Part shown: piece by piece, positions 132-34,044 of the stretch
Layout of the letters: the number at the start of each line of letters is the position of its first letter
How positions within the stretch are numbered: the stretch's first letter is position 1
DNA from: an uncultured Reyranella sp.
GTDB taxonomy: Bacteria; Pseudomonadota; Alphaproteobacteria; Reyranellales; Reyranellaceae
Reading direction: 5' to 3'
Assembly (NCBI GenBank): GCA_937919085.1
Contig: CALFRN010000015.1
Span: 1 to 34,044 of the forward strand
Length of the DNA stretch: 34,044 nt
The notes under the pieces: model-generated
The model's input: the letters and a program-made list of their open reading frames with translations, nothing else
The model's database searches: none
What the model was told of the DNA's origin: nothing
Program-made: the position numbers and the translations under genes

Positions 132-1094
132 TCAGTTCATGATGCAGGCGCTGAACTGGCCAGGTGCAACTTCCCTCAGATCGGGGACGACCTTTGCGCA
201 CTCTGCAACAGCTTGGGGACAACGGGTGCGAAAGACACAGCCTGATGGAGGGTTGATCGGGCTCGGAATGTCGCCAGCGAGAAGGACCCTACTGCGCTTG
301 TGTCCCGGTCTAGGGACTGGCACCGCCGACAAGAGCGCCTTCGTGTAGGGATGCGCGGGATTGTTATAAAGTGCTGCGGTCGGAGCGATTTCCATGATGC
401 GCCCGAGATACATCACGATGATGCGGTCGCAGATATGCTCCACGACGGCCAAATCGTGCGCGATGAACAGCATCGTCAGGTTGAATTCGGAGCGGAGGTC
501 GTCGAGCAGATTTATGACTTGCGCTTGAATGGACACATCGAGTGCAGAGACCGGCTCGTCGGCCACCACAAATTCCGGGTTGACGGCCAGCGCCCGGGCG
601 ATCCCAATCCGTTGCCGCTGGCCGCCAGAGAATTCGTGCGGAAAGCGATCTAGGTAGTCTGCTGACAGGCCCACCTGTTCCAGCAGTCCGACGATGCGGT
701 CTTCGCGGTCGACAGACGTGCCGATCCTGTGCAGAGCCAGGGCATGGCCGATCACGGTGCGGATCTTTTCACGGGGATTCAGACTGGCGTAGGGGTCCTG
801 GAAGATGATCTGCATGCGCTTGCGGTAGCCACGCATCTCTTCCCGGCTTATATTAATGATGTTGGTGCCGTCGAAGATCACCGCCCCCTCGGTCGCCTCT
901 TCCAAGCGAAGGAGGGTGCGCCCTACGGTAGTCTTGCCCGATCCGCTTTCACCGACCAATCCGACGACTTCGCCCTTATTGACATCGAAGCTGATCCCGT
1001 TGACCGCCTTGACGTTGTTGATCACACGGTTCAGCACGCCGCCCCGTATGGGGAAGTATTTCTTGAGGTTCTTGACGGCCAGAAGAGAGGTCAT
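132..1094 (-). CDS. Dpp/Opp-type ABC importer ATP-binding protein (DppF/OppF-like)
   Basis: This is one of two cytoplasmic ATPases that would power an oligopeptide-type ABC importer. The 320-residue length is usual for DppF/OppF. Visible motifs are Walker A GESGSGKTT at 48-56, Q-loop FQDP near 98-101, signature FSGGQR at 155-160, Walker B FVVADE at 175-180 and H-loop IAHD near 211-214. The C-terminal oligopeptide-transporter region has four cysteines (C286, C292, C299, C317), spaced as in members of this family reported to hold an iron-sulfur cluster. The start overlaps the stop of the upstream ATPase gene as ATGA. The partner binding protein and permeases are not adjacent; they lie about 20 kb away on the other strand at 20600-24141. 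The family is certain; the transported substrate is unknown. Confidence 0.95.
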   Translation of the reverse strand: MTSLLAVKNLKKYFPIRGGVLNRVINNVKAVNGISFDVNKGEVVGLVGESGSGKTTVGRTLLRLEEATEGAVIFDGTNIINISREEMRGYRKRMQIIFQDPYASLNPREKIRTVIGHALALHRIGTSVDREDRIVGLLEQVGLSADYLDRFPHEFSGGQRQRIGIARALAVNPEFVVADEPVSALDVSIQAQVINLLDDLRSEFNLTMLFIAHDLAVVEHICDRIIVMYLGRIMEIAPTAALYNNPAHPYTKALLSAVPVPRPGHKRSRVLLAGDIPSPINPPSGCVFRTRCPQAVAECAKVVPDLREVAPGQFSACIMN

Positions 1095-2107
1095 GCCGGA
1101 ATTCCTTCGGAAAGAGACAGTTCGTCGGCCCGCAAGCAGCGAACCTCGCGCCCAGATGCGTCACGCGTCAAGGCGGGCTCGGTCAGAGCGCAGGCTGGCT
1201 TGGCATAGGCACAGCGCTGTCGGAACCGACAGCCAGAGGGCAGGTGGGCCAGCATCGGCACCTGTCCAGGAATGGTGTCCAGCCGACGATGCTGCCCCGC
1301 CGAACCCAGGCGCGGGATCGACTTCAAAAGACCCGCCGTATAGGGCATGCGCGGGCGTTCGAAGATGTCCACGACTGATGCGGATTCTACGACCTGACTG
1401 GCATACATCACCACCACCCGGTCAGCCATTTCTGCAACCACACCAAGGTCATGCGTGATGAAGATGATAGCCATGCCAATTTGCGCCTGCAGGTCCTTCA
1501 TCAGCTCAAGGATCTGCGCCTGGATCGTCACATCCAGCGCCGTTGTCGGTTCATCCGCAATCAGCAGACGGGGTTGGCAGGCCAGGGCCATGGCGATCAT
1601 CGCGCGCTGCCGCATGCCCCCCGACATCTGGTGCGGATAGCTGTCAGCGCGTTTCTTGGGTTCCGGAATTCCGACCAAGGCCAGCATGTCGATTGCACGG
1701 GCATGGGCCTTGGCAGCCGACAGCCCCTCATGACAGATCAGCACTTCGGAAATCTGCGCGCCGAGGGTATGCACCGGGTTCAGGCTTGTCATCGGTTCTT
1801 GAAAGATCATGCCGATTTCCTTGCCGCGGATGGCGCGCATCTCTCGTTCCGACAACTTGGTCAGGTCGCGGCCGCGCAGCAGTATCTGGCCGCGCGTGAT
1901 CTCGCCCACGCCCTTGGTCAGCAGGCGCATGATCGACAGGCTGGTGACGGATTTGCCAGACCCGCTTTCCCCGACGATGGCCAGGGTCTCGCCGGGGTCG
2001 ACCGAAAAACTGACTCCATCGACTGCCCTGATGTGAAATTTTCCACCCAGATGGAACGTGGTCTGCAGGTCGCGTACTGCCAGAAGCGGTTGTTCAGGAT
2101 CGGTCAT
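1091..2107 (-). CDS. Dpp/Opp-type ABC importer ATP-binding protein (DppD/OppD-like)
   Basis: This is the second ATPase of the oligopeptide-type importer, 338 residues. It shows Walker A GESGSGKS at 46-53, Q-loop [10 protein letters not shown] near 102-111, signature MSGGMRQR at 161-168 and Walker B LLIADE at 181-186. The MSGGMRQR form is typical of DppD/OppD rather than DppF/OppF. The C-terminal region contains the cysteine-rich CRFRQRC element of this family. It overlaps the dihydroorotase-like gene upstream and the DppF-like gene downstream by 4 bases each, so translation is probably coupled. It closes the left gene train together with its partner, while the permeases are in the divergent train. 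Confidence 0.95.
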
Positions 2108-3483
2108 GCCTGTCCTTTCGGAGTGATGAAGCGGCCTTGTCCGGGAGTGCCGGTCAGGCCGTCGTGCCAGATGGTTTCGCCAGCCAGCAGCGTTCGCCGC
2201 AAGGCGCCGTGGAACACCGCCCCTTCGGTCAGGGTGGCGATGTTGTGGGCGGCGGTCAGAAGCTTGGCTGCCGTCGGCGTCGTCAGCGCCGTCGGGTCGA
2301 TCAGAACGATATCTGCCCTGCCGCCCTTAGAAAGCCTACCCCGGTCCGGCAGGCCGAACCTCGCGGCCGCATTTGTCGACATGACTGATACGGCCCGCTG
2401 CAGGCTTATCCTGCCGGTATGGACGGCATCAAGCATGGCAGGCAGCATAGTTTCAAGCCCTGGATGACCGGGCGGTGCGGTCAGGAAGTTGCCAGTGTGT
2501 GCCGCCTTTTCTTGCGGTGTGAAGGCGGCGTGATCGGTTGTCACATGAGCAAGCACGCCGTCCTCGATCGCCTGCCACAGCGCCTCGCGGTCGGCTGCAT
2601 GGCGGATGGGCGGGTTGATCTTGGCCGCAACGCCTGCACGCGCCACGTCGGTCTCGGTATAACACAGATAGTGCGGACAGGTTTCCGCGGTGAAATCGCT
2701 GGTTCCTGCGAATCGGCGCAGCACCTCGATCGAGTCGGCCGAGGTCACGTGGGCGATGTGCAGGCGAGCCTGGGCCCGCATGTTCATCGTCAGCAGCATG
2801 GCCACCGCCAGGGCCTCGGCCATCGGGGGGCGGGCACGGTTGTGGATCCGCGCATCACCGGGGTCGTCGCCGGCAACCAGCTGCGCCGCACGGGCAAGGA
2901 TATCAGCATTCTCGGCGTGCACTACCACCGGAAGACCGGTGCGCGCGATCAGGCGAAGGGCCTGCATCTGATCCGCCGGATCGGGCCAGGCAAGGCCCGC
3001 AAACTCCCTTTCGCGGCCAGGGGGGGGAGGGGTGGTGAATATCTTGAAGGCGATGATCCCACTGCCTGCCAGCGCATCCACGGCAGCTTCGGTCAGGGGA
3101 AGTGGGGCCGCGTAGAGACCGAAGTCGACATGGGCGCGTTGCGCGAAATGTTCGCGCCGGCGCTGGACCTTCTCTGGCGTGTTGCAGCAGGGATCGGTGA
3201 TAGGCATCTCGAAAACGCTGGTGATGCCACCTGCCGCGCAGGCCGCCGTCTCGGTTTCGACCGAACCGCGGTTCGGGTAGGCGGGCGAGCGGATGTGGCA
3301 GTGGATGTCGATCAGCCCGGGCAGTATCTGCAGGCCGGTCGCGTCAATCATTTCACCGGCTTCGGCTTGCTCATCGGGCCCAAGCACGCCAGCGATCCGC
3401 CCGCCTGACAGCGCAAGCTGCCCCGGGCGCGGTCCGTCGGGGGTCATCAGGATGCCTCCCCGGATCAGTTTGTCGAAGCTCAT
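2104..3483 (-). CDS. Dihydroorotase/allantoinase/hydantoinase-type amidohydrolase
   Basis: This is a 459-residue member of the cyclic amidohydrolase group, which opens ring amides (dihydroorotate, allantoin, hydantoins) with a binuclear metal site. The expected ligands are visible: DIHCH with H61 and H63, a lysine at K147 (AFKIF) in the place of the carbamylated lysine, HAEN with H189, HIAHVTS with H245 and TTDHA with D317. No pyrimidine pathway genes are nearby, so a housekeeping dihydroorotase is unlikely. The neighbours are a second amidohydrolase on this strand and a PuuE-type allantoinase in the divergent train. It starts by a 4-base ATGA overlap with the unrecognised 473-residue gene. 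The ring substrate cannot be decided from sequence. Confidence 0.88.
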   Translation of the reverse strand: MSFDKLIRGGILMTPDGPRPGQLALSGGRIAGVLGPDEQAEAGEMIDATGLQILPGLIDIHCHIRSPAYPNRGSVETETAACAAGGITSVFEMPITDPCCNTPEKVQRRREHFAQRAHVDFGLYAAPLPLTEAAVDALAGSGIIAFKIFTTPPPPGREREFAGLAWPDPADQMQALRLIARTGLPVVVHAENADILARAAQLVAGDDPGDARIHNRARPPMAEALAVAMLLTMNMRAQARLHIAHVTSADSIEVLRRFAGTSDFTAETCPHYLCYTETDVARAGVAAKINPPIRHAADREALWQAIEDGVLAHVTTDHAAFTPQEKAAHTGNFLTAPPGHPGLETMLPAMLDAVHTGRISLQRAVSVMSTNAAARFGLPDRGRLSKGGRADIVLIDPTALTTPTAAKLLTAAHNIATLTEGAVFHGALRRTLLAGETIWHDGLTGTPGQGRFITPKGQA

Positions 3484-4901
3484 TTCAGCCCCAATTCCCC
3501 AAGCGCCTCACCCACCCCGTCTAGGTGATCCAACCGCATCGAGGTGTAGTTCGGGGCCAGCACGACGCCGTGCCCGCCTGCACGATAGGTCGCAAGGACT
3601 GACCGATAGGCGATGTCGCGCGTCATCTTTGCTGTGTCTGGGCGCGAGCGTGGTGCATCCACGCCGATACCCATGTAGACGCTGGCCTGCCCATCGACAC
3701 CGCGCACGGCATCGGCGCACTGGCCGAAGACATAGGTGTCGGGATCCATCCCCGCACCGACAAGCTGGTCGAACGGCGCTTCGTTGAGGCCCAAGATACG
3801 GAACAGGCCGCGCGTCGCCTCATCCCCGGTAAAGTCGCGCAGGATCGTTTTGCGGAAGAACGACAATTCCTTGGCCCAGACCTCGCCGGCCTGGTGCTGA
3901 TAGGTGATCGGCTTGACGAAATCGGCATAGCGGGTCTGTTCGGCCCACGGCCATTGCGCGCGCCTGATCAGGTTGAAATGGTTGCGGTTCCAGACGTTGA
4001 GGCCAAAGGGCAGATGCGGCTTGCACCACTTCACCAGACCATAAAGCTCTCGGTCGAGATCCTTGTTGCGCTCCAACCAGAACTTTTCCCACACCATTGC
4101 CTCGGGGTTGTCCAGCAGCACCCGCAGAAAGGTGATGAGCGTGCCATCGACGAAGTTCTTGCCAGCAGCCGCCTCCTGGCAGAAATCGTAAATCCGCAGC
4201 AGCGCCTGACGGCAGCTTTCCGAGTTGACGTTGCGTTCCTCGGCCTCGCGCCGGGCGGGGGCGGAGAAGTCGCCCGGGCAGCCACCTTGGATCAGCGTGT
4301 CCAAGGGCGAGTTGCGCTCGTTGCACCACATGAACCCGTCAAGGTCGTGGTTGCGCACCTGATCCTCGATCATCGAATGGATCCAGCCGCGATAGCCTGG
4401 ATGCGAGGTGGACGGCTCGCCGCCAAGGCGGCCGAAGATGTCAACTTCCATCGCCTGCGGAAGGGTCGGAATGTCGACCGCCGCCGCCGAGCCGTGGCCA
4501 GCGTATTTGAAGAACGGCTCCATCAGCTCGACATAGACCTTCATCCCGCGTGCATGGGCGGCTGGAATGACCATCTTCAGGATGTCTTTACCTTCGAACT
4601 CAGGGTCGCGTGACCGGTAGGCTCCCATGAACGTGTCGCGGTAGTAGCGCGGATCGGGGTCGAAATAGGCCCCGCCCTGCATCTGATAGGGCTCCGGCAC
4701 GCCGTGGTCGGGCCAGCCGTCCAGTTCATGGCTGATCGAGCGCCCGGATTTCAGACCAAGCCAAGACACCGTACCCAGCATCAGGACGTTGACGCCCGCG
4801 CGGGTCTGAAGCGTGTCCAGAACGCTTTCGACGCCTTCGTCGACAAAACTGATCGGGCTGATCTGGCAGCCGACGAACTTACTCTTCGGATCCGCGCTCA
4901 T
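3480..4901 (-). CDS. Unrecognised 473-residue protein, possibly glycoside-hydrolase-like TIM barrel
   Basis: I do not recognise a characterised family. The sequence has features common in glycoside-hydrolase-like TIM barrels: a beta strand ending in NVLMLGTVSW near 38-47, an AHARGMKVYVELMEPF segment near 115-130 like the barrel strand of alpha-amylase-type and family-10-like proteins, and a DLDGFMWCNERN segment near 185-196 where an acidic catalytic residue might sit. The C-terminal part (AYRSVLATYRAGGHGVVLAPNY) also looks like a barrel strand and helix. There is no signal peptide, so it should be cytoplasmic. It overlaps both neighbours by 4 bases (ATGA), between the aminotransferase and the dihydroorotase-like gene, so it belongs to the same unit. 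The fold is an inference; a structure prediction would settle it. Confidence 0.6.
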   Translation of the reverse strand: MSADPKSKFVGCQISPISFVDEGVESVLDTLQTRAGVNVLMLGTVSWLGLKSGRSISHELDGWPDHGVPEPYQMQGGAYFDPDPRYYRDTFMGAYRSRDPEFEGKDILKMVIPAAHARGMKVYVELMEPFFKYAGHGSAAAVDIPTLPQAMEVDIFGRLGGEPSTSHPGYRGWIHSMIEDQVRNHDLDGFMWCNERNSPLDTLIQGGCPGDFSAPARREAEERNVNSESCRQALLRIYDFCQEAAAGKNFVDGTLITFLRVLLDNPEAMVWEKFWLERNKDLDRELYGLVKWCKPHLPFGLNVWNRNHFNLIRRAQWPWAEQTRYADFVKPITYQHQAGEVWAKELSFFRKTILRDFTGDEATRGLFRILGLNEAPFDQLVGAGMDPDTYVFGQCADAVRGVDGQASVYMGIGVDAPRSRPDTAKMTRDIAYRSVLATYRAGGHGVVLAPNYTSMRLDHLDGVGEALGELGLK

Positions 4902-6076
4902 GCTGCGGCCCGTACGCTTTGGGCGAAGGTTGTGATGCGGTGCATCGCCTCCTGGATCATCGGTAAGGGTTGCAGATAGCTGATGCGGATGTAGTCGGTG
5001 CTGTCGTCGCCGAACATCGTGCCCGGAAACAGCATCACTCCCGTTTCCCGCAGCAAGCGTTCGCAGAATTCCGGAGCCGCCATCCCGGTGGAGGAAATGT
5101 TGGTGTAAATGTAGAATGCTCCCCCCGGATGCCCGTAGGTGAACCCTGCGGCGGTCAGCGCGGGCATCAGCCAGTCGCGCCGCGCGGCATAATCGGCCAG
5201 CATTGCCGCCAGCGGTTCCTGCGGCCCGGTCAGCGCGGCCAGCGCGGCGTGCTGGCTGACGGTGCAGGTGTTGATCGACAGCGTGTGGCGCGGCTCGGTC
5301 ACTTTGTTTACGAAGTCCAGCGGTGCGGCCAAGTAGCCGACGCGCCAGCCCGTCATGGCATAGGTCTTGGAAAACCCGTTCAGGGTGATCGTCCGTTCCT
5401 TCATGCCGGGCAGGGTGGCGATGCTGAGGTGCTCGTTTGGGGCGTAGATCATCTTGGCATAAATCTCGTCCGCGATGATCAGGATGTCGTGCTTGATCGC
5501 CAAATCAGCGATCTGGCGGATCACGGCTGGCGGAGTCACGGCTCCCGTCGGGTTATTGGGCGAGACGAGCACGAACATCCGCGTCCGCGGAGTGATCCGC
5601 GCCTCGATCTCGGCCAAGTCCAGCGCGAAGTCGTCCTTTTCATGGGTCGGCGCCGGCACTGGCACCCCGCCGCACAGATGCACCGCGGTGTCGTAGGTGG
5701 TGAAGCGGGGCGAGGTGATCAGCACCTCGTCGCCTGGCGCGCACAGCGCCAGCATGCACAGCATGATGCTTTCCTGCACGCCCGCCGTCACCACGATCTC
5801 TTCCGCCGTATAGTCCAGCCCGTAGCTGGAATTGAGATCAGCGGCGATAGCCGTGCGCAACTGGGGCAGGCCCGTCGGGCCTGTATAGTGGTGCGCATTG
5901 GCGTCAAGTGCCGCCTTGGCCGCCTCGACGATATGCGCAGGTGTGTGGAAATCGGGATCGCCACGGCCTAGGGCGATCACGTCGTTGCGGTCGGCCGCGA
6001 TCCCCAGCATGCGGGTGCGGAACGAGCCGTCTTCTTCCACGATGCGGGGGGCGATATGCTTGGCGAACTGGCTCAT
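4898..6076 (-). CDS. PLP-dependent aminotransferase, class I/II
   Basis: This is a fold-type I aminotransferase of 392 residues in the aspartate aminotransferase superfamily. It has the SPNNPTG motif with N175, DEIY with D203 and Y206 contacting the cofactor, and the Schiff-base lysine K237 in NGFSKTYAMTGWR. The start MSQFAKH at 6076 is chosen because it gives the ATGA overlap with the preceding amidohydrolase and the normal family N terminus; the open frame continues upstream only as antisense of that gene. It is clearly related to the aminotransferase at 12957-14153 in the divergent train: the catalytic lysine is at the same residue number in both and long segments match. The amino donor or substrate is not predictable here. 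Confidence 0.93.
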   Translation of the reverse strand: MSQFAKHIAPRIVEEDGSFRTRMLGIAADRNDVIALGRGDPDFHTPAHIVEAAKAALDANAHHYTGPTGLPQLRTAIAADLNSSYGLDYTAEEIVVTAGVQESIMLCMLALCAPGDEVLITSPRFTTYDTAVHLCGGVPVPAPTHEKDDFALDLAEIEARITPRTRMFVLVSPNNPTGAVTPPAVIRQIADLAIKHDILIIADEIYAKMIYAPNEHLSIATLPGMKERTITLNGFSKTYAMTGWRVGYLAAPLDFVNKVTEPRHTLSINTCTVSQHAALAALTGPQEPLAAMLADYAARRDWLMPALTAAGFTYGHPGGAFYIYTNISSTGMAAPEFCERLLRETGVMLFPGTMFGDDSTDYIRISYLQPLPMIQEAMHRITTFAQSVRAAA

Positions 6077-7293
6077 CCGTGCATCCTCTTGCCGTCGATA
6101 AAGGTCATTTTGATGCGCTCCAGGGCGAACAGGTCCTGATCGGGGTTGCCGTCGACCACGATCACATCCGCGGCCTTGCCCACCTCGAGCGATCCGATCA
6201 GGTGATCCATTGCCGAGACTTTCGCCGCCCGGATGGTGATCGAAGCCAGCGCATCCATGTTGTCGTGGCAAACGCCGACCTTGACCATGTGCGCCAGTTC
6301 AGGGGCGACCACATCATGCTCCACCGCCGGGCTGCCTGCGTCCGTGCCAAAGACGATGGGCACGCCGCGCTCTGCCGCCTTTTTCAGCCCCTCGTAGCGG
6401 CTGGGATCTGCGACGGCCTTGATCCGTTCCTCGACTTTCCAGTCGGGAATTCCGAAGCGGCGGGCGATCTCGGGCTGGCTTTGCTGCACCAGCGGCGCGA
6501 AGGTGGTCACGATCGGCAACTTTCGGTCCAAAAGGACCTGAATCGTCTCGTCCGACATCGATCCACCATGTTCGATGCAGTCAACCCCGAATTCCGCCAC
6601 ACGGCGGATGCAGGCATCATAGGTGGCGTGCGCCGTTACTGGCAGGCGGTTGCGATGCGCCTCGTCGATTACGGCGGCCAACTCCTCGTCGGTGAATTCC
6701 AGCGTGTCGTGGCAGGCCATGATTTTGATTAGGTCTGCCCCGCCCTTTACCTGCTCACGCACCGCGCGGCGCATCTCGTCGGGGCCCGAGGCTTCGCGAC
6801 AGACCCAGTAGGTATGCCCGCCGGTCTGGATGATTGCAGCCCCGCAAACCTTCAGTCGTGGCCCGGGAAAGATGCCCTGCGCGACGGCTTGTTTGGAATA
6901 AAGGTTCATGTCGTGAAATCCAAGGTCACGGACCATCGTGATCCCCGCTCGCAGCGATTTCAGCATGTTGCCCGCCGCCTTGAAGGCGCTGATCGGCTTG
7001 GGGTCATCCATCGACTGGCGGGCCAGGTCGTGGATACCGTCCCAGTTCAAATGTGCGTGGCTGTTGATCATGCCGGGCATCAGTGTGCCGCCCGTCTCGA
7101 TCACCGGGCCCGCCGGCATCTGCGTCCGGGGGCCGACGGCGGCGATCTTGCCGTCCTTCATTTCGACAAATCCATCCTCCACGATGTCGCCGATGATCGG
7201 GATCACCCGGCCTGCCAGAATAGTATGTGGGGCAGCCAGATCGAACATCGGCTTCGTGATCTTCTGATAGCGCCAGGCAGCGGGTTCGGACAT
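6073..7293 (-). CDS. Metal-dependent amidohydrolase (imidazolonepropionase/Xaa-dipeptidase-like)
   Basis: This 406-residue amidohydrolase has the full binuclear metal set: HAH with H79 and H81, K190 in LIKIMACHD as the bridging lysine, AHATY with H222, IEHGG with H242 and FGTDAG with D318. This pattern fits the branch that includes Xaa-Arg/Lys dipeptidase-like and imidazolonepropionase-like enzymes, as opposed to the dihydroorotase branch seen at 2104-3483. There is no signal peptide. It follows the M24 gene after 9 bases, and its AGGAG ribosome site overlaps that gene's TAG stop. Its stop overlaps the aminotransferase start. A role in cutting an amide or peptide bond of the imported compound is likely, but the exact substrate is open. 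Confidence 0.9.
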   Translation of the reverse strand: MSEPAAWRYQKITKPMFDLAAPHTILAGRVIPIIGDIVEDGFVEMKDGKIAAVGPRTQMPAGPVIETGGTLMPGMINSHAHLNWDGIHDLARQSMDDPKPISAFKAAGNMLKSLRAGITMVRDLGFHDMNLYSKQAVAQGIFPGPRLKVCGAAIIQTGGHTYWVCREASGPDEMRRAVREQVKGGADLIKIMACHDTLEFTDEELAAVIDEAHRNRLPVTAHATYDACIRRVAEFGVDCIEHGGSMSDETIQVLLDRKLPIVTTFAPLVQQSQPEIARRFGIPDWKVEERIKAVADPSRYEGLKKAAERGVPIVFGTDAGSPAVEHDVVAPELAHMVKVGVCHDNMDALASITIRAAKVSAMDHLIGSLEVGKAADVIVVDGNPDQDLFALERIKMTFIDGKRMHG

Positions 7294-11316: not shown

Positions 11317-11343
11317 TTGACAATCCCGTTCGAATCATACAAT
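11317..11343 (+). promoter_or_regulatory. Candidate sigma-70 promoter of the right (plus-strand) train
   Basis: A consensus TTGACA at 11317-11322 is followed after 15 bases by TACAAT at 11338-11343, one mismatch from TATAAT. The spacing is short (17 is ideal), and other AT-rich hexamers nearby could serve. The predicted start would lie just upstream of the two palindromes, which would then sit in the 5' leader where a bound repressor would block elongation or initiation. Confidence 0.4.
11334..11339 (-). promoter_or_regulatory. Candidate -10 of the left (minus-strand) train
   Basis: On the minus strand this reads TATGAT, one mismatch from TATAAT, about 70 bases upstream of the first DUF4438 start. 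The hexamer at normal spacing upstream is not a good -35, but it falls next to the TTGTCGACAA palindrome, where an activator or repressor could act. This is a weak prediction based on sequence pattern only. Confidence 0.3.
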
Positions 11344-11357
11344 AGTTGATTTATAAG

Positions 11358-25206: not shown

Positions 25207-25910
25207 TCCCGCTTTCCTCGCAGAAGATTGTTATCACCGGTGCGGCAGAAGGCTTGGGCGCCGCCATCGCGCGCCACCTTTCTGCGCAAGGCGCGCGGCT
25301 GGTTCTGATGGACCGCAACGCGCTGGCGCTGGCGCAGACGCAGGCCTTGTGCCCCGGTTCCACCGCGCTGACAGTGGATCTGTCAGACGCAGCCGCTACC
25401 GCCGAGGCGATCGCCCAGTTTTCTACCCCCATCGATACCGTGATCCACAACGCCGCCATCCTGCGGGTCGAGGCGGTCGATGACACCAACCTTGCCACCT
25501 TTCAGGCTACTCTCAACGTCGGAATCCAGGCGGCGTTCCAGCTGACCCAGGCGGTCTGGCCGCAGATGAAGACGCACGGCGGGGCGCTGATCTTCGTCTC
25601 GTCCCGCTCGGGGATCGAGGGTTTTGTCAACGAAACCGCCTATTGCGCCGCCAAGCACGCGCTTGAGGGGTTCTCCAAATGCCTTGCCATTGAAGGCGCG
25701 CCGCATGGTATCGTCTCTTACACCATCACTCCGGGTATGCTGATGAACACCCCGATGAGCGAGACGACCTACGGCGCCGAACAGCGCGCCCGCTGGGTCG
25801 ATCCGATCCGCCTCGCCCCCGCCTTCGCCCATCTGGCAGAGTTGCGTCCGATGCAGCTGTCAGGGCAGCGGCTGAATGCTTGGGCTTTGTCCAAAGGAAC
25901 CGACACATGA
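25203..25910 (+). CDS. Short-chain dehydrogenase/reductase (classical SDR)
   Basis: This 235-residue classical SDR has the TGAAEGLG cofactor motif at 12-19, NAA at 83-85 in place of NAG, an active-site serine near 133-134 (FVSSRSG) and Y147 and K151 in YCAAK. It is shorter than average at the C terminus, where the substrate loop reads TPGMLMNTPMSE. Coupled by ATGA overlaps to the Gfo/Idh gene before and the M20 peptidase after, it probably oxidises an alcohol or reduces a carbonyl intermediate. Confidence 0.92.
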   Translation: MIPLSSQKIVITGAAEGLGAAIARHLSAQGARLVLMDRNALALAQTQALCPGSTALTVDLSDAAATAEAIAQFSTPIDTVIHNAAILRVEAVDDTNLATFQATLNVGIQAAFQLTQAVWPQMKTHGGALIFVSSRSGIEGFVNETAYCAAKHALEGFSKCLAIEGAPHGIVSYTITPGMLMNTPMSETTYGAEQRARWVDPIRLAPAFAHLAELRPMQLSGQRLNAWALSKGTDT

Positions 25911-27280: not shown

Positions 27281-28929
27281 TGGATATCCGCTTTGACACC
27301 TACCACGACTATGATGCGCTGACCGTGCACCTGCACGCGCTTGCAGCCGCCTATCCGCGCCTTGCCACGCTGACCTCGATCGGCCGTACGCATGGTGGGC
27401 GCGACGTCTGGTTCATGCAGATCACCAACCCCGACACCGGTCCCGCGCTGGAAAAGCCCGGCTACTACATCGACGCGCAGATCCACGCCGAGGAACACGC
27501 CACCTCGGCCACCGCGCTTTACGCGATCCACTACCTGCTGACTGGCTACGGCATCGACCCCGAGGTGACACGTCTGGTGGATGACCAGGTCTTCTATATC
27601 ATCCCCCGCATCAATCCCGACGGGGCGGAATACGCGATCAAGTCGCCTTACCAGCCGTGGTGCGGCAACGGGCGCGTCCGGCCCGGCGAAGACCGCCTGG
27701 AGGGCCTGCAGGCGCAGGACATCGACGGCGACGGCTACATCGTCAACATGCGTGTTCCTGACCCCAAGGGCGAATGGAAAAAAGACCCCGCCGAGCCGCG
27801 CCTGATGATCCAGCGCGAACCTGGCGAAGAGGGAGGCGAATACTACCGCATCTACCCCGAAGGGCTGATCCCCGACTATGACGGCGCTGAGGTGACGATC
27901 CTGCCGCAGGCGGACGGTAACATGAACCGCAACTTCCCTATCAACTGGTCGCCGCAGGAATACGGCGCGGGTGAATACCCCTTCTCGGAGCCCGAAACGA
28001 TGGGTATTGCGCGGTTGATCTTTGATCACCCGAACATCTGCGGCATGTGCGCCTATCACACCCACGGCGGCATCATCCTGCGCCCCTCGATGATGGCGAC
28101 CGATGCCGAGATGAGCCCGCGCGACCTGGCGCTTTACAAGGCGTTGGGCGAGGTGGGCACCCGGCTGACCGGCTATCCAGTGATCTCGACCTTTGAGGAT
28201 TTCACGCCAGACAAGTCCAAGGTCCGCCACGGCTCGCTCAAGGACTGGGTCTATGAAGAGATGGGGATCATCTGCTTCTCGACCGAGCTCTGGGACATCG
28301 AGATCGCCGCCGGGGTGGAAAAGAAAGGCTACTACAACCTGCGTCCGCGCGACGCCGAAGTGCAGCGCAAGCTGTTCGACTGGGTGCTGGCCAATGTGGG
28401 CGACCACGGCTTCCGCAACTGGCGCGCCTTTGATCACCCGCAGCTTGGCCCGGTCGAAGTTGGCGGTATGGTCTATATCTGGAGCTACCGCAACCCGCCT
28501 GGGCACCTCCTGGAACAGGTCTGCCACAACAACACGCTGTTCAACCTGCGCCACGCTGCCGCAGCACCACGCGTGCGGGTGGATAGTATTACCGTCACGC
28601 CGCTGGGTGCCGATCTGCACAAGGTGACAGCAATCGTCGCCAACCACGGCTACCTGCCGACGAACCTGTCGGACGTGGCCATCAAGAACAAGGTCGCCCG
28701 CACCGTCACCGTAACAATCGAGGGGGCAGAGGTGCTGATTAACCCGCCGACCGCTGATCTGGGCCATCTTGCGGGCCGGAACGAACGCAGCTATGAATAT
28801 TCCAACTGGGGCCAGCAATGGTCGAGTGTGGCACGCAAGGTCGAATGGCTGGTACGCGGAACCGGTCCCATCACCGTCACTGCATGCTCCGAAAAAGGCG
28901 GCACTCACCGGTTTGAGATGACGTTATGA
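27280..28929 (+). CDS. M14-family zinc carboxypeptidase
   Basis: This 549-residue protein has an M14 catalytic domain at about 1-380 and a C-terminal beta-rich domain at about 430-549. The zinc ligands H69 and E72 are in the AQIHAEEHA segment, the substrate-carboxylate block NRNFP is at 216-220, the third zinc histidine is H260 or H262 in YHTHGG, and the catalytic glutamate is E336 in FSTELWD. An insertion at about 122-212 with many charged residues is unusual relative to short M14 enzymes. No signal peptide is present, although many M14 carboxypeptidases are secreted. ATG 27280 is chosen; GTG 27277 immediately before it is possible. It overlaps the stop of the M20 gene. Confidence 0.92.
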   Translation: MDIRFDTYHDYDALTVHLHALAAAYPRLATLTSIGRTHGGRDVWFMQITNPDTGPALEKPGYYIDAQIHAEEHATSATALYAIHYLLTGYGIDPEVTRLVDDQVFYIIPRINPDGAEYAIKSPYQPWCGNGRVRPGEDRLEGLQAQDIDGDGYIVNMRVPDPKGEWKKDPAEPRLMIQREPGEEGGEYYRIYPEGLIPDYDGAEVTILPQADGNMNRNFPINWSPQEYGAGEYPFSEPETMGIARLIFDHPNICGMCAYHTHGGIILRPSMMATDAEMSPRDLALYKALGEVGTRLTGYPVISTFEDFTPDKSKVRHGSLKDWVYEEMGIICFSTELWDIEIAAGVEKKGYYNLRPRDAEVQRKLFDWVLANVGDHGFRNWRAFDHPQLGPVEVGGMVYIWSYRNPPGHLLEQVCHNNTLFNLRHAAAAPRVRVDSITVTPLGADLHKVTAIVANHGYLPTNLSDVAIKNKVARTVTVTIEGAEVLINPPTADLGHLAGRNERSYEYSNWGQQWSSVARKVEWLVRGTGPITVTACSEKGGTHRFEMTL

Positions 28930-29624
28930 AACTTGCTGGGATGAACTGGGCCGACGTGGTGGCCGCCGCCGCGCGCGATTCCCGTGCGGTCCTGCCAATC
29001 GGCTCGGTTGAACAGCACGCGCAACTGTCGCTTTGCGTCGACATGATCCTGGCCGAAAAGGTCGCGCTGGATGCGGCCGAACCGCTGGGTGTTCCGGTCT
29101 GGCCGGCGATGCCCTTCGGCCTGGCGCCCTACTTTGTCGACTATCCCGGCACCGTCACATTGCGCGTGGAGACGCTGCTGGCGGTGATGCGCGACGTTCT
29201 GGCATCGATCCGTCGGGCAGGTTTTCGCCGTATCCTGATCGTCAACGGGCACGGCGGCAACGGGCCTGTCGATGCACTTGCGCAGGAACTGATGGCCGAC
29301 AGGGGCGACACCTCGATCAAGTTCCACAACTGGTGGCGCGCGCCCCGCACCTGGGCCTTCGTACAAGAAAACGGTGGCGGCAGCCATGCCAGCTGGATGG
29401 AAAACTTCCCCTGGACCCGACTACCCCATGCCCCGGCCCCGGCGGGTGACAAGCCGATGGCCGATTTTGATCTGTTGCGCGCCAGCCCGCCTGCAGCGGC
29501 GCGCGCGATGTTGGGCGACGGCAACTTTGGTGGTGCCTGGCAAAAGCCTGATGCCGTGACCGATGCGCTGTGGCAGATCGGCGTCGAAGAAACACGCAAC
29601 GCGCTGGAGGGGCCATGGGCTTGA
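28926..29624 (+). CDS. Creatininase-family amidohydrolase
   Basis: This 232-residue member of the creatininase family has metal-site residues in PIGSVEQHAQ (E29, H31), D39 in LCVDM, H109 in VNGHGGN and E159 in GSHASWMEN. Such enzymes open cyclic amides (creatinine) or hydrolyse formamides and peptide-like C-N bonds, as in MftE. No creatine or sarcosine genes are in the window, so creatinine itself is only one possibility. The ATG overlaps the M14 stop, and the gene ends 10 bases inside the following SDR gene. It is another C-N hydrolase of a different fold in the same transcription unit. Confidence 0.9.
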   Translation: MKLAGMNWADVVAAAARDSRAVLPIGSVEQHAQLSLCVDMILAEKVALDAAEPLGVPVWPAMPFGLAPYFVDYPGTVTLRVETLLAVMRDVLASIRRAGFRRILIVNGHGGNGPVDALAQELMADRGDTSIKFHNWWRAPRTWAFVQENGGGSHASWMENFPWTRLPHAPAPAGDKPMADFDLLRASPPAAARAMLGDGNFGGAWQKPDAVTDALWQIGVEETRNALEGPWA

Positions 29625-30364
29625 TCCTGGACGGAACGACCGCGCTGGTCACGGGCGTGGTCGGAGGCATAGGCGCGGCCATCGCCCGGCGCCTTGTGCG
29701 CGACGGCGCGCACGTCACTGTAATCGACCTGCCCGGACCCGCCTTTGATGCCGCCTGCGCGGGGCTTGGCCTGCCGGGCCATGCCGCCGATCTTGGCCAG
29801 ATCGCCGACGTCCGCGCGCTGGCCGAGCGGATGGCAGAAGCCCCACCCCTGATCGTGGTTAGCGCCGCAGGCGGCGTGCGCGGCCAGATCCGCCGCCCGG
29901 TCGAAGATGTTCCCGAAGACGACTGGCAGGCGATCTTCGCCGCCAACGTCGACAGCGCGTTTCACCTGGCGCAGGCCTTTGCCCCGGCGATGAAGGTGAG
30001 GGGGCAGGGCCGTTTCGTCACCATTAGTTCGGGTGCTGGCCTAAGGGCAAGCCTTACCGGCATCCAGGCCTACGCCGCCGCCAAGCACGCGCTTGTGGGC
30101 CTAACGCGCCAGCTGGCGCTGGAGCTTGGGCCGTTTGGCATCACAGTGAATTCAGTTGCGCCCGGCTTCGTGCTGTCGAACCCTGCCAGTCGTGCGCAAT
30201 GGGATAGCTACGGGCCTGAGGGGCAGGCCGCCATCCTCGCCACCACCCACACCCGCAGGCTGGGCGAGCCCGAGGACATTGCGGGGGCCGTGGCCTTTCT
30301 GGCAGGGCCGGACGCCAGCTGGATCACCGGTCAGGTGCTTTCGGTGGATGGGGGCCATGGCTAA
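29615..30364 (+). CDS. Short-chain dehydrogenase/reductase (second classical SDR)
   Basis: This 249-residue classical SDR has TGVVGGIG at 13-20, an active-site serine at about 138 (TISSGAG), Y153 and K157 in YAAAK, and the PGFV segment with a closing ITGQVLSVDGGHG, normal for the family. ATG 29615 is selected because it gives the standard N terminus; the frame upstream is within the creatininase gene. The sequence around residues 82-88 reads VSAAGGV where NAG is usual, a mild variation. The gene overlaps the first exporter gene by 8 bases, tying metabolism and export into one transcript. Confidence 0.93.
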   Translation: MGLILDGTTALVTGVVGGIGAAIARRLVRDGAHVTVIDLPGPAFDAACAGLGLPGHAADLGQIADVRALAERMAEAPPLIVVSAAGGVRGQIRRPVEDVPEDDWQAIFAANVDSAFHLAQAFAPAMKVRGQGRFVTISSGAGLRASLTGIQAYAAAKHALVGLTRQLALELGPFGITVNSVAPGFVLSNPASRAQWDSYGPEGQAAILATTHTRRLGEPEDIAGAVAFLAGPDASWITGQVLSVDGGHG

Positions 30365-32198
30365 AGCGCAGCGCCATCCGACCAAGCCTCCCGTCGAGGA
30401 GCAGAGGTTTACTGATACCGTCAGCCCCGCCAAGGGCCTGCGCACGATGTGGCGTGTGCTGCGCATCGGGATGGAAACGCCTTGGCAGATGGCCTTTGCT
30501 CTGGTCGCCACCATCGTCGCGGCTGTGCTGCAACTGATCATCCCGCAACTGCTGGGTCGGGCGGTGGACCAGACGCAGGTCGCGGCGGCCGGTGGCGACG
30601 ATGCCGCGACGCGGGCGCTGTTCCTCACCGCTCTTCTGGTGCTGGCGGTGTCCGCCTTGCGCGGTCTTTTTGCGACCTTCCAGAACTACTTCAGCGAGAC
30701 GGTGGGGCACTACACCGGCCTGCGGCTGCGGCTGGCCTATTACGACAAGATCCAGCACCTGAGTTTCGGTTTCCATGACCGGATGCATTCGGGCGATCTG
30801 ATCACACTGGGGCTGCTGGACCTTGAAGGCGCGCGCACGTTTTTTGCAACGGGCGTTGTGCGCCTGCTGCTGCTGGTCGTGCTGATCGGTTTTGGCGGCT
30901 GGTGGCTGATCAGTATTGATCCGGTCCTGGGGCTTTTGGCGCTCAGCTTCGTGCCCTATGTCGGGTGGCGGTCCTCCACCTCGCAGCTTGAGCTGCGCCA
31001 GACCTGGCTCGACCTGCAAGAACGCCTCTCCGTCCTGACCAGGGTGATAGAAGAGAATCTGGCCGGCATCCGTGTCGTGCGGGCCTTTTCTGCGCAGGAT
31101 CACGAACTGGCCAAGTTTCGGGTGGAGTCCATCCGGGCGCTGGACCTTGCGCATGAGCGGGTGGACTTGCGGGTGCGCAGCTCTTCGGTGATGACGCTGT
31201 CATTCTTTGCGGCGATGGGGCTGGTTCTGCTGGTGGGCGGTCTGAAGGTGCAGGCAGGCAACATGACCGTCGGCACGCTGACCGCCTTTCTGACTTTCAT
31301 GATGATCCTGCAGATGCCGGTCCGCCAGTTGGGGATGCTGGTCAACTCGGTCGCCCGCACCTCGACCTGCGGCGCGCGGATCTTTGCGCTGCTGGACCTT
31401 GAGCCTACCGTATCCACCGACCCCCACGCCCCCTCGTTCAACCTGACAGAAGGTACGCTGCGCCTTGACTGCGTCAGCTTTGCCTACCCCTCGGCCCCCG
31501 ATCATCTGGTGCTGCGCGACATCTCGTTCACCGCCCGCCGTGGCGAGACGATCGGGATCGTTGGCGAACAGGGCAGCGGCAAGACCACCATCGCCCAGCT
31601 GATCCCACGCTTTTACGATGTGACCGGCGGGGCCATCACCCTGGACGGCCAGAATATTCGCCACGTCACGCTTTTGTCGGTGCGCAAGGCTGTGGCGGTG
31701 GTCACGCAGGATGTGTTCATGTTCACCACCACGATGGAAAACAACATCGCCTACGGGGACCCTTGGACACATGAAGAAGGGATTGAAACATCCAGCAGCG
31801 ACGCACAACTGCACGACTACATCGACACTCTGCCTGAACGATATCGCACCGTTGTCGGCGAACGCGGCGCCTCGCTGTCGGGCGGGCAGCGCCAGCGCAT
31901 GTCGATTGCGCGCAGCCTGATCCTCGATCCCGCCGTGCTGATCTTCGACGATTCCACCGCTGCGATCGACGCCCGCACCGAAGAGCGGATCTTCGCGGCC
32001 ATCCGTGCGAAGGCCGCAAGCCGCGTCACCATCCTGATCGCGCACCGGCTTAACACGCTGATGCACGCCGACCGCATCCTGGTGTTGGAAGGCGGCACCA
32101 TCGCTGAAGAGGGCACTCATGCCGACCTTCTGGCGCTGAACGGCCGCTACCGCGCGCTTTACGACCTGCAGCATCATTCTTTCGGAGACCGGCCATGA
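30357..32198 (+). CDS. ABC exporter half-transporter with degenerate Walker B
   Basis: This 613-residue type IV ABC transporter has six membrane helices (about 40-325) fused to a C-terminal ATPase. Motifs are Walker A GEQGSGKTT at 403-411, Q-loop Q451, an intact LSGGQ signature at 507-511 and Walker B VLIFDD at 527-532. The catalytic glutamate after Walker B is aspartate (D532, in DDSTAAID), as in the regulatory half of heterodimeric multidrug-type exporters. The start ATG 30357 is within the SDR end, and the frame upstream of it is not coding. The next gene encodes the partner with an intact glutamate. The cargo is unknown: a drug, lipid or peptide is usual. Confidence 0.94.
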   Translation: MAKAQRHPTKPPVEEQRFTDTVSPAKGLRTMWRVLRIGMETPWQMAFALVATIVAAVLQLIIPQLLGRAVDQTQVAAAGGDDAATRALFLTALLVLAVSALRGLFATFQNYFSETVGHYTGLRLRLAYYDKIQHLSFGFHDRMHSGDLITLGLLDLEGARTFFATGVVRLLLLVVLIGFGGWWLISIDPVLGLLALSFVPYVGWRSSTSQLELRQTWLDLQERLSVLTRVIEENLAGIRVVRAFSAQDHELAKFRVESIRALDLAHERVDLRVRSSSVMTLSFFAAMGLVLLVGGLKVQAGNMTVGTLTAFLTFMMILQMPVRQLGMLVNSVARTSTCGARIFALLDLEPTVSTDPHAPSFNLTEGTLRLDCVSFAYPSAPDHLVLRDISFTARRGETIGIVGEQGSGKTTIAQLIPRFYDVTGGAITLDGQNIRHVTLLSVRKAVAVVTQDVFMFTTTMENNIAYGDPWTHEEGIETSSSDAQLHDYIDTLPERYRTVVGERGASLSGGQRQRMSIARSLILDPAVLIFDDSTAAIDARTEERIFAAIRAKAASRVTILIAHRLNTLMHADRILVLEGGTIAEEGTHADLLALNGRYRALYDLQHHSFGDRP

Positions 32199-34044
32199 GC
32201 GGCGAGAACGAGATGGAGCGCAACGAAGTGCGCGAAGACGGCCGCCGCCCCCCGCGCGCCGTAGTCGGTTCGCACCGCGTCAAGGAAGAGATGTTCGGCC
32301 GTGTCTTCGACACCAAGGTCATGCGCCGCATCTGGGTCTTTGTTCGGCCGTATCGCCGAGAGCTGGTAATCTCTGTGATTTCGGTCCTGATCTTCACGCT
32401 GTCGCAGCTGTCGATCCCGATCATCATCCGTACCGCGATCGACGAGGGCCTTTTGGTCCCCGACGGGCGAAGCGCCCTCATCTGGTCGGTCCTGGCCTTT
32501 GCCGTGGCGATCCTCGTCAACTTCCTGTCCAGCTTCACGCAGGAAAAGCTGGTGGGGCGGGTCGCCGAGAACGTGCTGTTCGACATTCGCGAGGCGATGT
32601 TCACCCATCTGCAGCGCGTGTCGCAAAGCTTCATGGATAAGACCGAGGTCGGCCGCCTGATGTCGCGGCTGCAAGGCGACGTGAACTCTATGCAGGAATT
32701 CCTGGAAACGTCGGTCATTTCGGTGGGTGATCTGGTGCTGCTGTTTGGCATCGTCGGCTGCATGCTGTGGCTGGACTGGCAACTGGGTCTGCTGACGCTG
32801 TCGATCCTGCCGGTCCTGTTCCTCGTCCGCATCGTTTGGTTGCCGCGCGCCCGGATGGCCTTCATCGTAGCGCATGACACCAACTCGGTCACCGGAGGCG
32901 CGCTGGCAGAGGGAATTCACGGCGTACGCACGGTACAGGGCATGACCCGGCAGATTGTCAACATGCAACTGTTCGAGGACAAGGCAACGGCGAACCTGCG
33001 CGCACATCTGGTCGCGGCACGCTATGCGCAGGTGCTGGTTCCCATCGTCGACGCGCTGACCGGCCTTGCGATGGCAGCGGTTGTCGTCGTGGGCGGCGCG
33101 ATGGTGCTGGACCGCAGGATGGACGTCGGCGTGATGGTCGCCTTCCTGTTCTTTATCCAGCGCTTTTTCGACCCGGTGCGGTCGCTGACCATGCAGTACT
33201 CGGTGATGCAGCGCGCCATGGCCTCTGGCCAGCGCCTGACAGAGGTACTGGATGTTCCTGTCGGCATCAAGGATGCGCACGAAGCCGTCGATCTGCCGCC
33301 CGGCACACCCGGGGCTGTGGAGTTCCGTGACGTGCGGTTTTCCTACGTGCCCGGCCAGCTGGTGCTGCAGGGCCTGAGCTTCAAGGTGGCGCCCGGCGAG
33401 ACGGTGGCGCTGGTCGGCCCGACCGGCTCGGGTAAGTCCAGCATTATGTCGCTGATCCACCGGTTCTATGATGTATCTTCTGGCGTGGTTTTGGTCGGCG
33501 GGCATGATGTGCGACAGGTGACACAACGCTCGCTTGGCGCGCAAATCGCGATGGTGCTGCAAGAGCCGTTTCTTTTCACCGGCACCGTTATGGACAACAT
33601 CCGGTATAACAAGACCACCGCCACCGACGCCGAGGTGATTGAGGCCGCGCGCACCGTTGGCGCGCATGACCTGATCCAGCGCCTGCCGAACGGCTACATG
33701 ACGGAACTGAACGAACGTGGGGCAAACCTGTCGATGGGGCAGCGCCAGCTCATCAGCTTCGCGCGCGCTCTGATCGTCGATGCGCCCATCCTTGTGCTGG
33801 ACGAGGCGACCTCCAGCATCGACAGCCAGACGGAACAGCAGATACAGAAGGCGCTCGCAGTTCTACTGAGCGGCAGAAGCGGCCTAATCATAGCGCATCG
33901 CCTCGCGACAGTTCGCCATGTGGATAGGATCCTGATCCTCAGCGCTGGGCGGATCGTTGAACAGGGCAGCCATTCAGAACTGATCGCCCTGGGGGGCACT
34001 TACGCCAAGCTCTTCAAGGCCAATCATGCTTCGTTTAATGATGG
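32195..34044 (+). CDS. ABC exporter half-transporter, partner subunit (runs off window end)
   Basis: The frame is open from ATG 32195, which overlaps the preceding stop as ATGA, to the window end (616 codons, no stop yet). The N-terminal 40 residues are highly charged. Six membrane helices (about 55-330) precede the ATPase. It shows Walker A GPTGSGKSS at 408-416, Q456, Walker B ILVLDE at 532-537 with an intact catalytic E537, and the H-loop IIAHR. The signature is LSMGQ at 512-516, not LSGGQ. So this subunit has a working Walker B and a weakened signature, the mirror image of its neighbour. The last visible residues are past the end of the ATPase domain, so only a short tail is missing. Confidence 0.93.
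   Translation, partial: MSGENEMERNEVREDGRRPPRAVVGSHRVKEEMFGRVFDTKVMRRIWVFVRPYRRELVISVISVLIFTLSQLSIPIIIRTAIDEGLLVPDGRSALIWSVLAFAVAILVNFLSSFTQEKLVGRVAENVLFDIREAMFTHLQRVSQSFMDKTEVGRLMSRLQGDVNSMQEFLETSVISVGDLVLLFGIVGCMLWLDWQLGLLTLSILPVLFLVRIVWLPRARMAFIVAHDTNSVTGGALAEGIHGVRTVQGMTRQIVNMQLFEDKATANLRAHLVAARYAQVLVPIVDALTGLAMAAVVVVGGAMVLDRRMDVGVMVAFLFFIQRFFDPVRSLTMQYSVMQRAMASGQRLTEVLDVPVGIKDAHEAVDLPPGTPGAVEFRDVRFSYVPGQLVLQGLSFKVAPGETVALVGPTGSGKSSIMSLIHRFYDVSSGVVLVGGHDVRQVTQRSLGAQIAMVLQEPFLFTGTVMDNIRYNKTTATDAEVIEAARTVGAHDLIQRLPNGYMTELNERGANLSMGQRQLISFARALIVDAPILVLDEATSSIDSQTEQQIQKALAVLLSGRSGLIIAHRLATVRHVDRILILSAGRIVEQGSHSELIALGGTYAKLFKANHASFND

Follow-up and report, generated by a model that had tools for sequence, protein, structure and literature searches.

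A 31-gene divergent island, probably GntR-controlled, with a candidate role in scavenging a peptide-like, nitrogen-rich molecule

Contig CALFRN010000015.1 of assembly GCA_937919085.1, binned as an uncultured Reyranella sp., is occupied by a divergent gene island of apparently catabolic character. The window analysed here is the entire contig (34,044 bp) from an assembly of 525 contigs and 4.9 Mb. As an earlier note made from the sequence alone had described, 31 genes are arranged in two trains around a 129-bp gap, with 10 genes on the minus strand (132–11265) and 21 on the plus strand (from 11395 to the contig end, which cuts the last gene, ABC exporter half 2). With corrected starts (that of AstE, 14628, being taken from its translation), 4-base overlaps occur at 16 of the 29 same-strand junctions. 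The remaining same-strand junctions are short gaps, an 83-bp gap 5′ of dppB, or overlaps with uncertain starts.

Nine C–N hydrolases are distributed over eight Pfam families (Pfam scan), namely M14, M20, M24, M32, an AstE/aspartoacylase-like deacylase, a creatininase-family protein, two amidohydrolases of one superfamily (AH1 and AHcyc), and a PuuE-like protein. They are accompanied by a Dpp-type importer (SBP5, DppB, DppC, and two ATPases), two class I aminotransferases, six oxidoreductases (Ldh_2, Epimerase, two GFO/IDH, and two SDR), an AllA-like lyase, a DHDPS-type aldolase, and one GntR/FCD regulator. All the hydrolase families named in the earlier note are thus present in the Pfam/NCBIfam scans, with the reservation that M24, which lacks the Asp metal pair, is doubtful as a peptidase, and its peptide-type importer, two aminotransferases, at least five oxidoreductases, lyase, and single GntR regulator are likewise found. 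The window additionally holds a second DUF4438 paralogue, a VOC protein, the DHDPS-type aldolase, and an ABC exporter pair (Table 1). Scans of the window for tRNA genes and for Rfam families at the gathering threshold returned no match.

Table 1. Genes and predicted regulatory features of the window (ORF, open reading frame; AF2, AlphaFold2).
Feature	Position	Strand	Evidence and remarks
OppD2, DppF/OppF-type importer ATPase	132..1094	-	PF00005+PF08352
OppD1, DppD/OppD-type importer ATPase	1091..2107	-	PF00005+PF08352
AHcyc, allantoinase/hydantoinase/dihydroorotase-like amidohydrolase	2104..3483	-	PF01979; TIGR03178 283.9 bits (cut-off 357.85)
GHL473, glycoside-hydrolase-like TIM barrel	3480..4901	-	no Pfam/NCBIfam family; AF2 model, fold matches
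AT1, class I aminotransferase	4898..6076	-	PF00155; ORF opens 6271, start taken at ATG 6076
AH1, amidohydrolase, Xaa-Arg/Xaa-Pro dipeptidase group	6073..7293	-	PF01979; PDB kin
M24, creatinase/prolidase family without prolidase Asp metal pair	7303..8451	-	PF00557; orthologue alignment
Ldh2, malate/L-lactate/ureidoglycolate dehydrogenase family	8448..9530	-	PF02615
DUF4438b	9527..10399	-	PF14505+PF20999; ORF opens 10537, start taken at ATG 10399
DUF4438a, paralogue of DUF4438b	10402..11265	-	PF14505+PF20999; alignment
Promoter-like TTGACA element facing plus train, putative	11317..11346	+	10/12 consensus matches
Palindromic operator-like site (TTGTCGACAA core), probable GntR site, predicted	11357..11368	.	
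M32 carboxypeptidase Taq family	11395..12957	+	PF02074
AT2, class I aminotransferase	12957..14153	+	PF00155
VOC superfamily, methylmalonyl-CoA-epimerase-like	14150..14626	+	PF13669; TIGR03081 63.1 bits (cut-off 114.95)
AstE/aspartoacylase-like deacylase, DoeB-related	14628..15614	+	PF24827; ORF opens 14448
PuuE-type cyclic-ureide hydrolase	15611..16540	+	TIGR03212 351.6 bits (cut-off 424.6); 3CL6 288 bits
AllA-like lyase	16537..17034	+	PF04115
DHDPS-family aldolase/lyase	17031..17933	+	PF00701
GntR/FCD regulator	17909..18619	+	PF00392+PF07729
Epim, NAD-dependent epimerase/dehydratase family	18616..19524	+	PF01370
GFO1, GFO/IDH/MocA dehydrogenase	19500..20597	+	PF01408
SBP5, periplasmic binding protein of importer	20600..22150	+	PF00496
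DppB permease	22234..23208	+	PF00528
DppC permease	23221..24141	+	PF00528+PF12911
GFO2, GFO/IDH/MocA dehydrogenase	24145..25206	+	PF01408
SDR1, short-chain dehydrogenase	25203..25910	+	PF00106
M20 metallopeptidase/deacylase	25880..27280	+	PF01546
M14 zinc carboxypeptidase, accessory	27277..28929	+	PF00246
Creatininase-family hydrolase, accessory	28926..29624	+	PF02633
SDR2, short-chain dehydrogenase	29615..30364	+	PF13561; ORF opens 29570
ABC exporter half 1	30156..32198	+	PF00664+PF00005; open frame, likely start ~30360
ABC exporter half 2, cut by contig end	32195..34044	+	PF00664+PF00005

The genes of the island are co-conserved. Since GHL473 has no Pfam or NCBIfam match, it was chosen as the island marker. 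One genome was scanned per species, which gave 153 relatives, and the best 80 of these were fetched with their flanks. Partners were called by tblastn (at least 60 bits, 34% identity, and 40% coverage) and counted over the loci that our own flank rule made eligible. Beside GHL473, the minus-train genes AT1 (73/78 eligible loci among the 80), AH1 (73/76), M24 (61/74), Ldh2 (64/72), DUF4438b (59/68), DUF4438a (56/65), AHcyc (63/73), OppD1 (54/59), and OppD2 (49/55) recur together with the plus-train genes M32 (57/63) and AT2 (57/60), in mostly unchanged order. Twenty other, longer neighbourhoods keep most of the plus train (AstE, PuuE, AllA, DHDPS, GntR, Epim, GFO1, SBP5, DppBC, GFO2, SDR1, and M20) and preserve the gene-by-gene order across most of both trains, with variation in M14, the creatininase, SDR2, and the exporters. 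A match to SBP5 of at least 52% identity is found in 29 of the 31 genomes searched, the window's own genome included. Lack of co-conservation had been named beforehand in the earlier note as one result that would speak against a single system; the genes instead co-occur across phyla. The MsbA-like ABC exporter halves that close the plus train (30156–34044) have relatives in several Rhodobacterales islands and in an island of Enemella evansiae (Actinomycetota), a strain of which (locus L051) carries a Rhodobacterales-like island copy on a 266-kb contig, either by transfer or through contamination.

Carriers of the island comprise Rhodobacterales and Hyphomicrobiales isolates, Gemmatimonadota- and Acidobacteriota-named bins, Trueperaceae, and low-GC alphaproteobacterial single-cell genomes (SAGs), which we take to be marine from their AG- names. 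Isolates with the island include Pseudotabrizicola algicola, Devosia enhydra, and Limimaricola pyoseonensis. The SAGs have a GC content of 29–30% (three loci measured) and a size of 1.4–1.5 Mb (three genomes), from which a HIMB59-like affiliation might be guessed, and one Trueperaceae genome holds much of the gene kit split over two contigs. A GHL473 tree with 41 rows places all nine from Gemmatimonadota and Acidobacteriota, with strong support, within the alphaproteobacteria, which suggests that the island was transferred between phyla, with the caution that bins of metagenome-assembled genomes (MAGs) can hold foreign contigs and that the phylum labels of single bins are uncertain. A shorter form of the island is found in Chloroflexota and Acidimicrobiia, where a second GHL473 subfamily (~37% identity) lies in shorter operons. 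All five Acidimicrobiia regions fetched contain an Epimerase, AT1, a 2-hydroxyacid dehydrogenase, GHL, and AH1; AHcyc is next in four of the five, and M24 genes are nearby in four of the five. The 2-hydroxyacid dehydrogenase adjoins the core in Acidimicrobiia and Caldilinea in place of the alphaproteobacterial Ldh2, and one Chloroflexota locus combines the DUF4438 pair with VOC, GFO1, GFO2, and Dpp genes. The neighbour labels in these other-lineage loci derive mostly from BLAST against labelled proteins and were Pfam-checked for part only. A Chloroflexota GHL473 locus (L182, 3601–9444) also carries a gene of the MR/MLE enolase family, DUF1028, and a distant AstE homologue.

The window itself looks foreign to its assembly, as judged from its composition, the absence of the marker from related genomes, and its closest match. 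A search of 75 further genomes from the assembly's order did not turn up GHL473, which in the class sample occurs in four of 385 genomes, the window's own among them. The window protein is 96% identical to that of a Tabrizicola MAG, with which it is paired in the tree at 100/99. In tetranucleotide distance, the window lies 0.171 from seven pooled contigs of its own assembly, each of which lies 0.085–0.156 from the rest, and it lies 0.147 from a 19.5-kb Tabrizicola flank and 0.250 from a shorter flank of 8 kb. Mis-binning of Rhodobacterales DNA would account for this, and so would a very recent transfer; composition alone is indecisive between the two.

A palindrome around TTGTCGACAA occupies the divergent gap between DUF4438a and M32; 33 of 55 such gaps, that of the window among them, contain its TGTCGACA core. 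Split islands in Limimaricola, Flavimaricola, Enemella, Pseudooceanicola, Pelagibacterium, and Trueperaceae carry a TTGTCGACAA site at further heads (dppB/oppD1, oppD2/gntR or SBP5, M32/M14, and gntR/GHL473), in more than one phylum. Twenty-two of 35 near-exact palindrome sites, in 13 of 21 neighbourhoods, fall within unit heads amounting to 3.65% of 1.06 Mb, where the heads are self-defined and extend 100 bp into genes and related species are counted repeatedly. The remaining 19 palindromes with identical half-site composition each had no more than one match in a head, and no more than five came from any of 200 random draws. Eight genomes scanned in full for RATTGTCGACAWT contain nine distinct sites, of which seven belong to the island; the reversed control has none. 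This enrichment at unit heads, including the separate heads of split islands, points to one regulon, which the island very probably is, and we infer that the GntR of the plus train binds the TTGTCGACAA palindrome.

Two of the conserved families are without assigned function. The AF2 model of GHL473 (473 residues; mean pLDDT, the model's per-residue confidence score, 84.7) is a TIM barrel. Among its closest structural neighbours (Z ~20–24; 10–16% identity) are PgaB (GH153), Cwp19, GH42, GH164, and an alpha-L-fucosidase entry. In clan-A glycoside hydrolases, strands 4 and 7 each end in a conserved carboxylate, one acting as acid/base and the other as nucleophile. GHL473 has their TIM-barrel fold without a conserved acid/base–nucleophile pair: E195 is kept in 21 of 22 relatives and the strand-7 carboxylate D415 in only 10, and GHL473 is therefore not classed as a clan-A glycosidase. 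Its glycosidase activity is doubtful on these alignments. E22, D327, and K330 are invariant among the 22 relatives. More distant homologues (30%) are found on a Granulicella plasmid (L143, 4797–14841), in a hydroxyproline-type catabolic cluster beside an aminopeptidase P-type gene, and in Parabacteroides (L144, 6923–16119), after TonB receptor/SusD genes and before a hypothetical protein gene and a glycerate kinase gene.

The DUF4438 domains score above the gathering cut-off in both paralogues (158.9 and 129.3 bits in DUF4438b; 151.9 and 141 bits in DUF4438a), and the two genes are adjacent in 67 of the 70 fetched loci with any DUF4438, some of which overlap. Two of the three single-DUF4438 loci are cut by a contig end, and the third (L202) has DUF4438a only. 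The DUF4438b model has a pLDDT of 71.9, with residues 20–80 poor, and its fold matches at E ≤ 0.001 are all TM1086 entries (seven rows); no function can therefore be assigned from the fold, and DUF4438 is an orphan fold as modelled. A plasmid search for DUF4438b gave no match, and DUF4438 is not mentioned by that name in the open-licence PMC literature searched.

M24 prolidases and aminopeptidase P have five metal-ligand residues, an Asp pair included. This pair is absent from the M24 protein of the window and from 10 of 10 aligned orthologues and is kept in the Granulicella homologue in the same alignment, which makes the term peptidase doubtful for M24; creatinase and ectoine hydrolase, which belong to the M24 family, likewise lack the Asp pair. 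The best PDB matches of M24 are prolidases, and creatinase 1CHM scores 45 bits. PuuE is closely related to a true allantoinase (3CL6, 288 bits) yet falls under the TIGR03212 cut-off, and in a SAG a PuuE gene lies directly 5′ of an M20 gene. The PDB kin of AH1 include the L-Arg carboxypeptidase Cc2672, prolidases, and ochratoxinase. A low-GC alphaproteobacterial SAG (L103, 9451–14087) has VOC–AstE–PuuE at a second site, followed by M20, with a divergent LysR-type regulator.

The combination of importer, hydrolases, and aminotransferases is naturally read as catabolism of an amide-rich or peptide-like compound, and a catabolic role for the island is likely. Its occurrence in one regulon, together with dehydrogenases, suggests the uptake and dismantling of a molecule. 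Further clues come from genes around the core in other lineages. Two Hydantoinase_B genes (Pfam) head the Trueperaceae GHL473 operon (L068, 4004–7362; L066, 34–3366), Hydantoinase A and B (BLAST) are found in one Chloroflexota locus, and Hydantoinase B (BLAST) in four Devosia loci and a Rhizobiales MAG, three of which also have Hydantoinase A. An isochorismatase-family gene lies at or beside the core in Acidimicrobiia. Because different families of one chemical theme (PuuE, AHcyc, creatininase, Hydantoinase A/B, and isochorismatase) recur at or next to the core, the substrate could tentatively be given a cyclic ureide or guanidine moiety. A sugar or polyol moiety has a slightly better but still less than even chance, on account of GFO1, GFO2, the Epimerase, SDR1, DHDPS, the GHL fold, and DegT-type aminotransferases near the core in one Trueperaceae genome, one Acidimicrobiia genome, and several SAGs.

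The explanation that we favour, with steps assigned from protein families, is a GntR regulon that scavenges a peptide-like, nitrogen-rich molecule, and its probability as a whole is put at roughly 0.55. The SBP5/DppBC/OppD1D2 importer would bring the molecule in intact, and the substrate or a product would free GntR from the TTGTCGACAA sites and open the divergent promoter. A cytoplasmic GHL473 would remove or process the sugar or polyol part, which GFO1, GFO2, Epim, SDR1, and the DHDPS-type aldolase could convert to central intermediates. AHcyc, PuuE, the creatinase-like M24, AllA, and probably the DUF4438a/b pair would open and strip the cyclic ureide or guanidine ring; AH1, M20, M32, M14, and AstE would cleave the remaining acyl-amino-acid and dipeptide bonds; and AT1 and AT2 with Ldh2 would deaminate and interconvert the freed amino, oxo, and hydroxy acids. 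The proposal in the earlier note of one catabolic system for an amide-rich or peptide-like compound thus stands insofar as the genes belong together, being co-conserved and having an operator-like palindrome common to many copies. It did not include the sugar or polyol part suggested by the two GFO/IDH proteins, Epimerase, SDR, DHDPS, and GHL473, and M24 is no standard peptidase.

Several observations weigh against this explanation. Related species and loci of one clade are not independent, and AHcyc is missing from 10 of 73 eligible loci, M24 from 13 of 74, and DUF4438a from 9 of 65, so that each of these steps can be dispensed with in some carriers. Of the 55 divergent gaps, 22, among them all 13 from low-GC SAGs, lack the TGTCGACA core, which was not found either in the stitched Rhizobium, Neorhizobium, Aureimonas, SAG, Caldilinea, and Acidobacteriota regions. 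Thirteen of the 35 near-exact sites lie outside unit heads; two of the eight genomes scanned (G457 and G461) lack the strict 13-mer, and a third (G479) has a single site away from its GHL473 locus. Among the best 25 NCBIfam matches listed for each window protein except DppB and DppC, none reaches its curated cut-off, which leaves specific enzyme functions unsupported, and a continued activity of PuuE, AllA, and AHcyc on ureides is presumed from family membership. Genes for Hydantoinase A/B are common, and those close to the core may be there by chance. To these is added the variable D415 of GHL473.

The island could instead serve general peptide scavenging, with a broad Dpp importer and many peptidases handling mixed peptides, cyclic dipeptides included, and no special substrate. 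The importer, M14, M20, M32, and the Xaa-Arg/Xaa-Pro-type amidohydrolase would suit such a role, and the cyclic amide hydrolases could open diketopiperazines: three hydantoin- and dihydropyrimidine-hydrolysing strains, one of them a Rhizobium, degrade some of these compounds, according to the available text of one study (PMC3852281). Against this role, the peptidases tested in that study cut no diketopiperazines, and two diketopiperazine-cutting isolates were inactive on dihydrouracil. PuuE, AllA, DHDPS, two GFO/IDH proteins, Epimerase, VOC, GHL473, and DUF4438 would, moreover, be superfluous for plain peptides, the palindrome is almost confined to the island in the genomes scanned, and the island is conserved in small low-GC genomes, all of which makes this alternative improbable, if still the one most worth keeping in mind. 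Somewhat less probable is a role in breaking down conjugates with a guanidino or imidazolone group, of which glycation products derived from arginine, or other rings resembling creatinine, would be examples. The creatinine route uses four enzymes, creatininase, creatinase, N-methylhydantoinase, and N-carbamoylsarcosine amidohydrolase. All four families occur at or beside the core in some lineage (creatininase and M24 in the window, Hydantoinase_B in Trueperaceae, Hydantoinase A/B in Devosia and Chloroflexota, and isochorismatase in Acidimicrobiia), but they were not found together at any one locus; an Arg carboxypeptidase is among the kin of AH1, but the scores remain far below cut-off (creatininase 73 of 235 bits; ectoine hydrolase DoeA 38.8 of 613), and an abundant natural source is hard to name.

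Mycosporine-like amino acids, which occur in lake, sea, and leaf habitats, would be a substrate if a non-metal M24 and AH1 cleaved imine or enaminone C–N bonds, freeing glycine and serine or threonine, while IolG-like GFO/IDH proteins acted on the cyclohexenone ring. Some record titles indicate lake, sea, and leaf sources (Erken, Tara Red Sea, and Leaf420), M24 is without the prolidase Asp pair, as are the amidine/guanidine hydrolases of its family, and the GFO/IDH members match IolG below the cut-off. This reading is nevertheless quite unlikely, given that PuuE, AllA, AHcyc, and the hydantoinases would have no evident role in it and that the best PDB matches of M24 are prolidases; no bacterial catabolic cluster for comparison was found in the open-licence PMC literature. 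Unrelated catabolic operons that became neighbours by chance, or an artefact of assembly, might be suspected from a window that is a whole contig and looks foreign in its own assembly, but the same order recurs in many independent assemblies, isolates included, and the palindrome is common to many of them. Co-conservation thus leaves chance scarcely credible, and a proven mis-binning would alter only the name of the host. Hydroxyproline glycopeptides were not adopted as substrate: the sole hint is the 30% GHL473 homologue in the Granulicella hydroxyproline-type cluster, and no proline racemase or amino-acid oxidase is among the window families. Muropeptides, folates/pterins, F420, and t6A nucleosides, weighed on chemical grounds alone, were not adopted either.

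Some 20–30 genes, probably under one regulator, are kept in small-genomed alphaproteobacteria and have apparently moved between phyla, which implies a common food molecule for which present annotation has no name. A bolder and rather unlikely extension is that the island is the route for a widespread, unrecognised class of biomolecules, peptide-like conjugates of a cyclic guanidine or hydantoin ring and a sugar or polyol, with DUF4438a/b as a new ring-opener of orphan fold and GHL473 as a new TIM-barrel hydrolase or lyase acting via the invariant D327 and K330; the passage of the island between phyla and its persistence in ~1.5-Mb genomes would then mark the molecule as an important environmental nitrogen source. 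The conserved binding protein, the short operator-like site, and the two protein families of unassigned function offer handles on the system, and DUF4438, for which structures have been solved, is now tied to a pathway.

The earlier note, which knew of no described pathway with the full gene set, agrees with our full-text searches (DUF4438, mycosporine-like amino acid catabolism, the enzyme combination, and cyclic dipeptide hydrolysis), in which no cluster of this make-up was recognised; they covered open-licence PMC papers only and are therefore weak negative evidence. Allantoin and ureide catabolism (PuuE/AllB, AllA, AllD, and AllC) has four homologues in the island, the PuuE-like protein, the AllB-like AHcyc, the AllA-like lyase, and the AllD-like Ldh2; a further likeness is the M20 gene after PuuE in a SAG. 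The four homologues stay below the cut-offs for allantoinase (PuuE TIGR03212 351.6 of 424.6 bits; AllB TIGR03178 283.9 of 357.85 bits), AllA (at best 64 of 212 bits), and AllD (TIGR03175 145.9 of 496.2), no urate-to-allantoin enzyme is among the window families (Pfam scan), and the island differs from the allantoin route in its peptide importer, many peptidases, sugar-type dehydrogenases, and DUF4438. Creatinine degradation is echoed by creatininase- and creatinase-family members in the window, where no Hydantoinase A/B is among the genes scanned, and by Hydantoinase A/B and isochorismatase-family genes near the core elsewhere; the creatininase reaches 73 of 235 bits (TIGR04448), creatinase 1CHM 45 bits to M24, and the gene set of the island is far larger. 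Ectoine degradation has superfamilies in common with the island (DoeA M24, DoeB AstE-like, and DoeD aminotransferase), which scores 38.8 of 613 bits for DoeA and 99.6 of 402.7 for DoeB and adds a Dpp-type importer and ring-opening amidohydrolases. For ergothioneine utilisation, AHcyc reaches 263.1 of 650 bits against ErtD. With these equivalog cut-offs unreached, plain allantoin, creatinine, ectoine, and ergothioneine were not adopted as substrates.

At the level of single proteins, GHL473 is alike in fold to PgaB (GH153), Cwp19, GH42, and GH164, from which it differs in its 10–16% identity and in a catalytic pair that is not conserved. The Thermotoga maritima DUF4438 protein TM1086 (3DCL and 3N99) provides the sole solved homologues found for DUF4438, with 36–38% identity over the aligned fold; unlike TM1086, the island has two paralogues side by side. 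The crystallisation of TM1086 has been reported, with no function given in the available text of that paper (PMC2661377). Dpp/Opp uptake systems with a GntR/FCD regulator resemble the island in importer architecture and regulator family, and the island is set apart from them by a binding protein co-conserved with its enzyme set and by the TTGTCGACAA palindrome. The general kind of this predicted catabolic regulon is known; its gene set was found to be undescribed in the literature searched, and its substrate probably is so as well.

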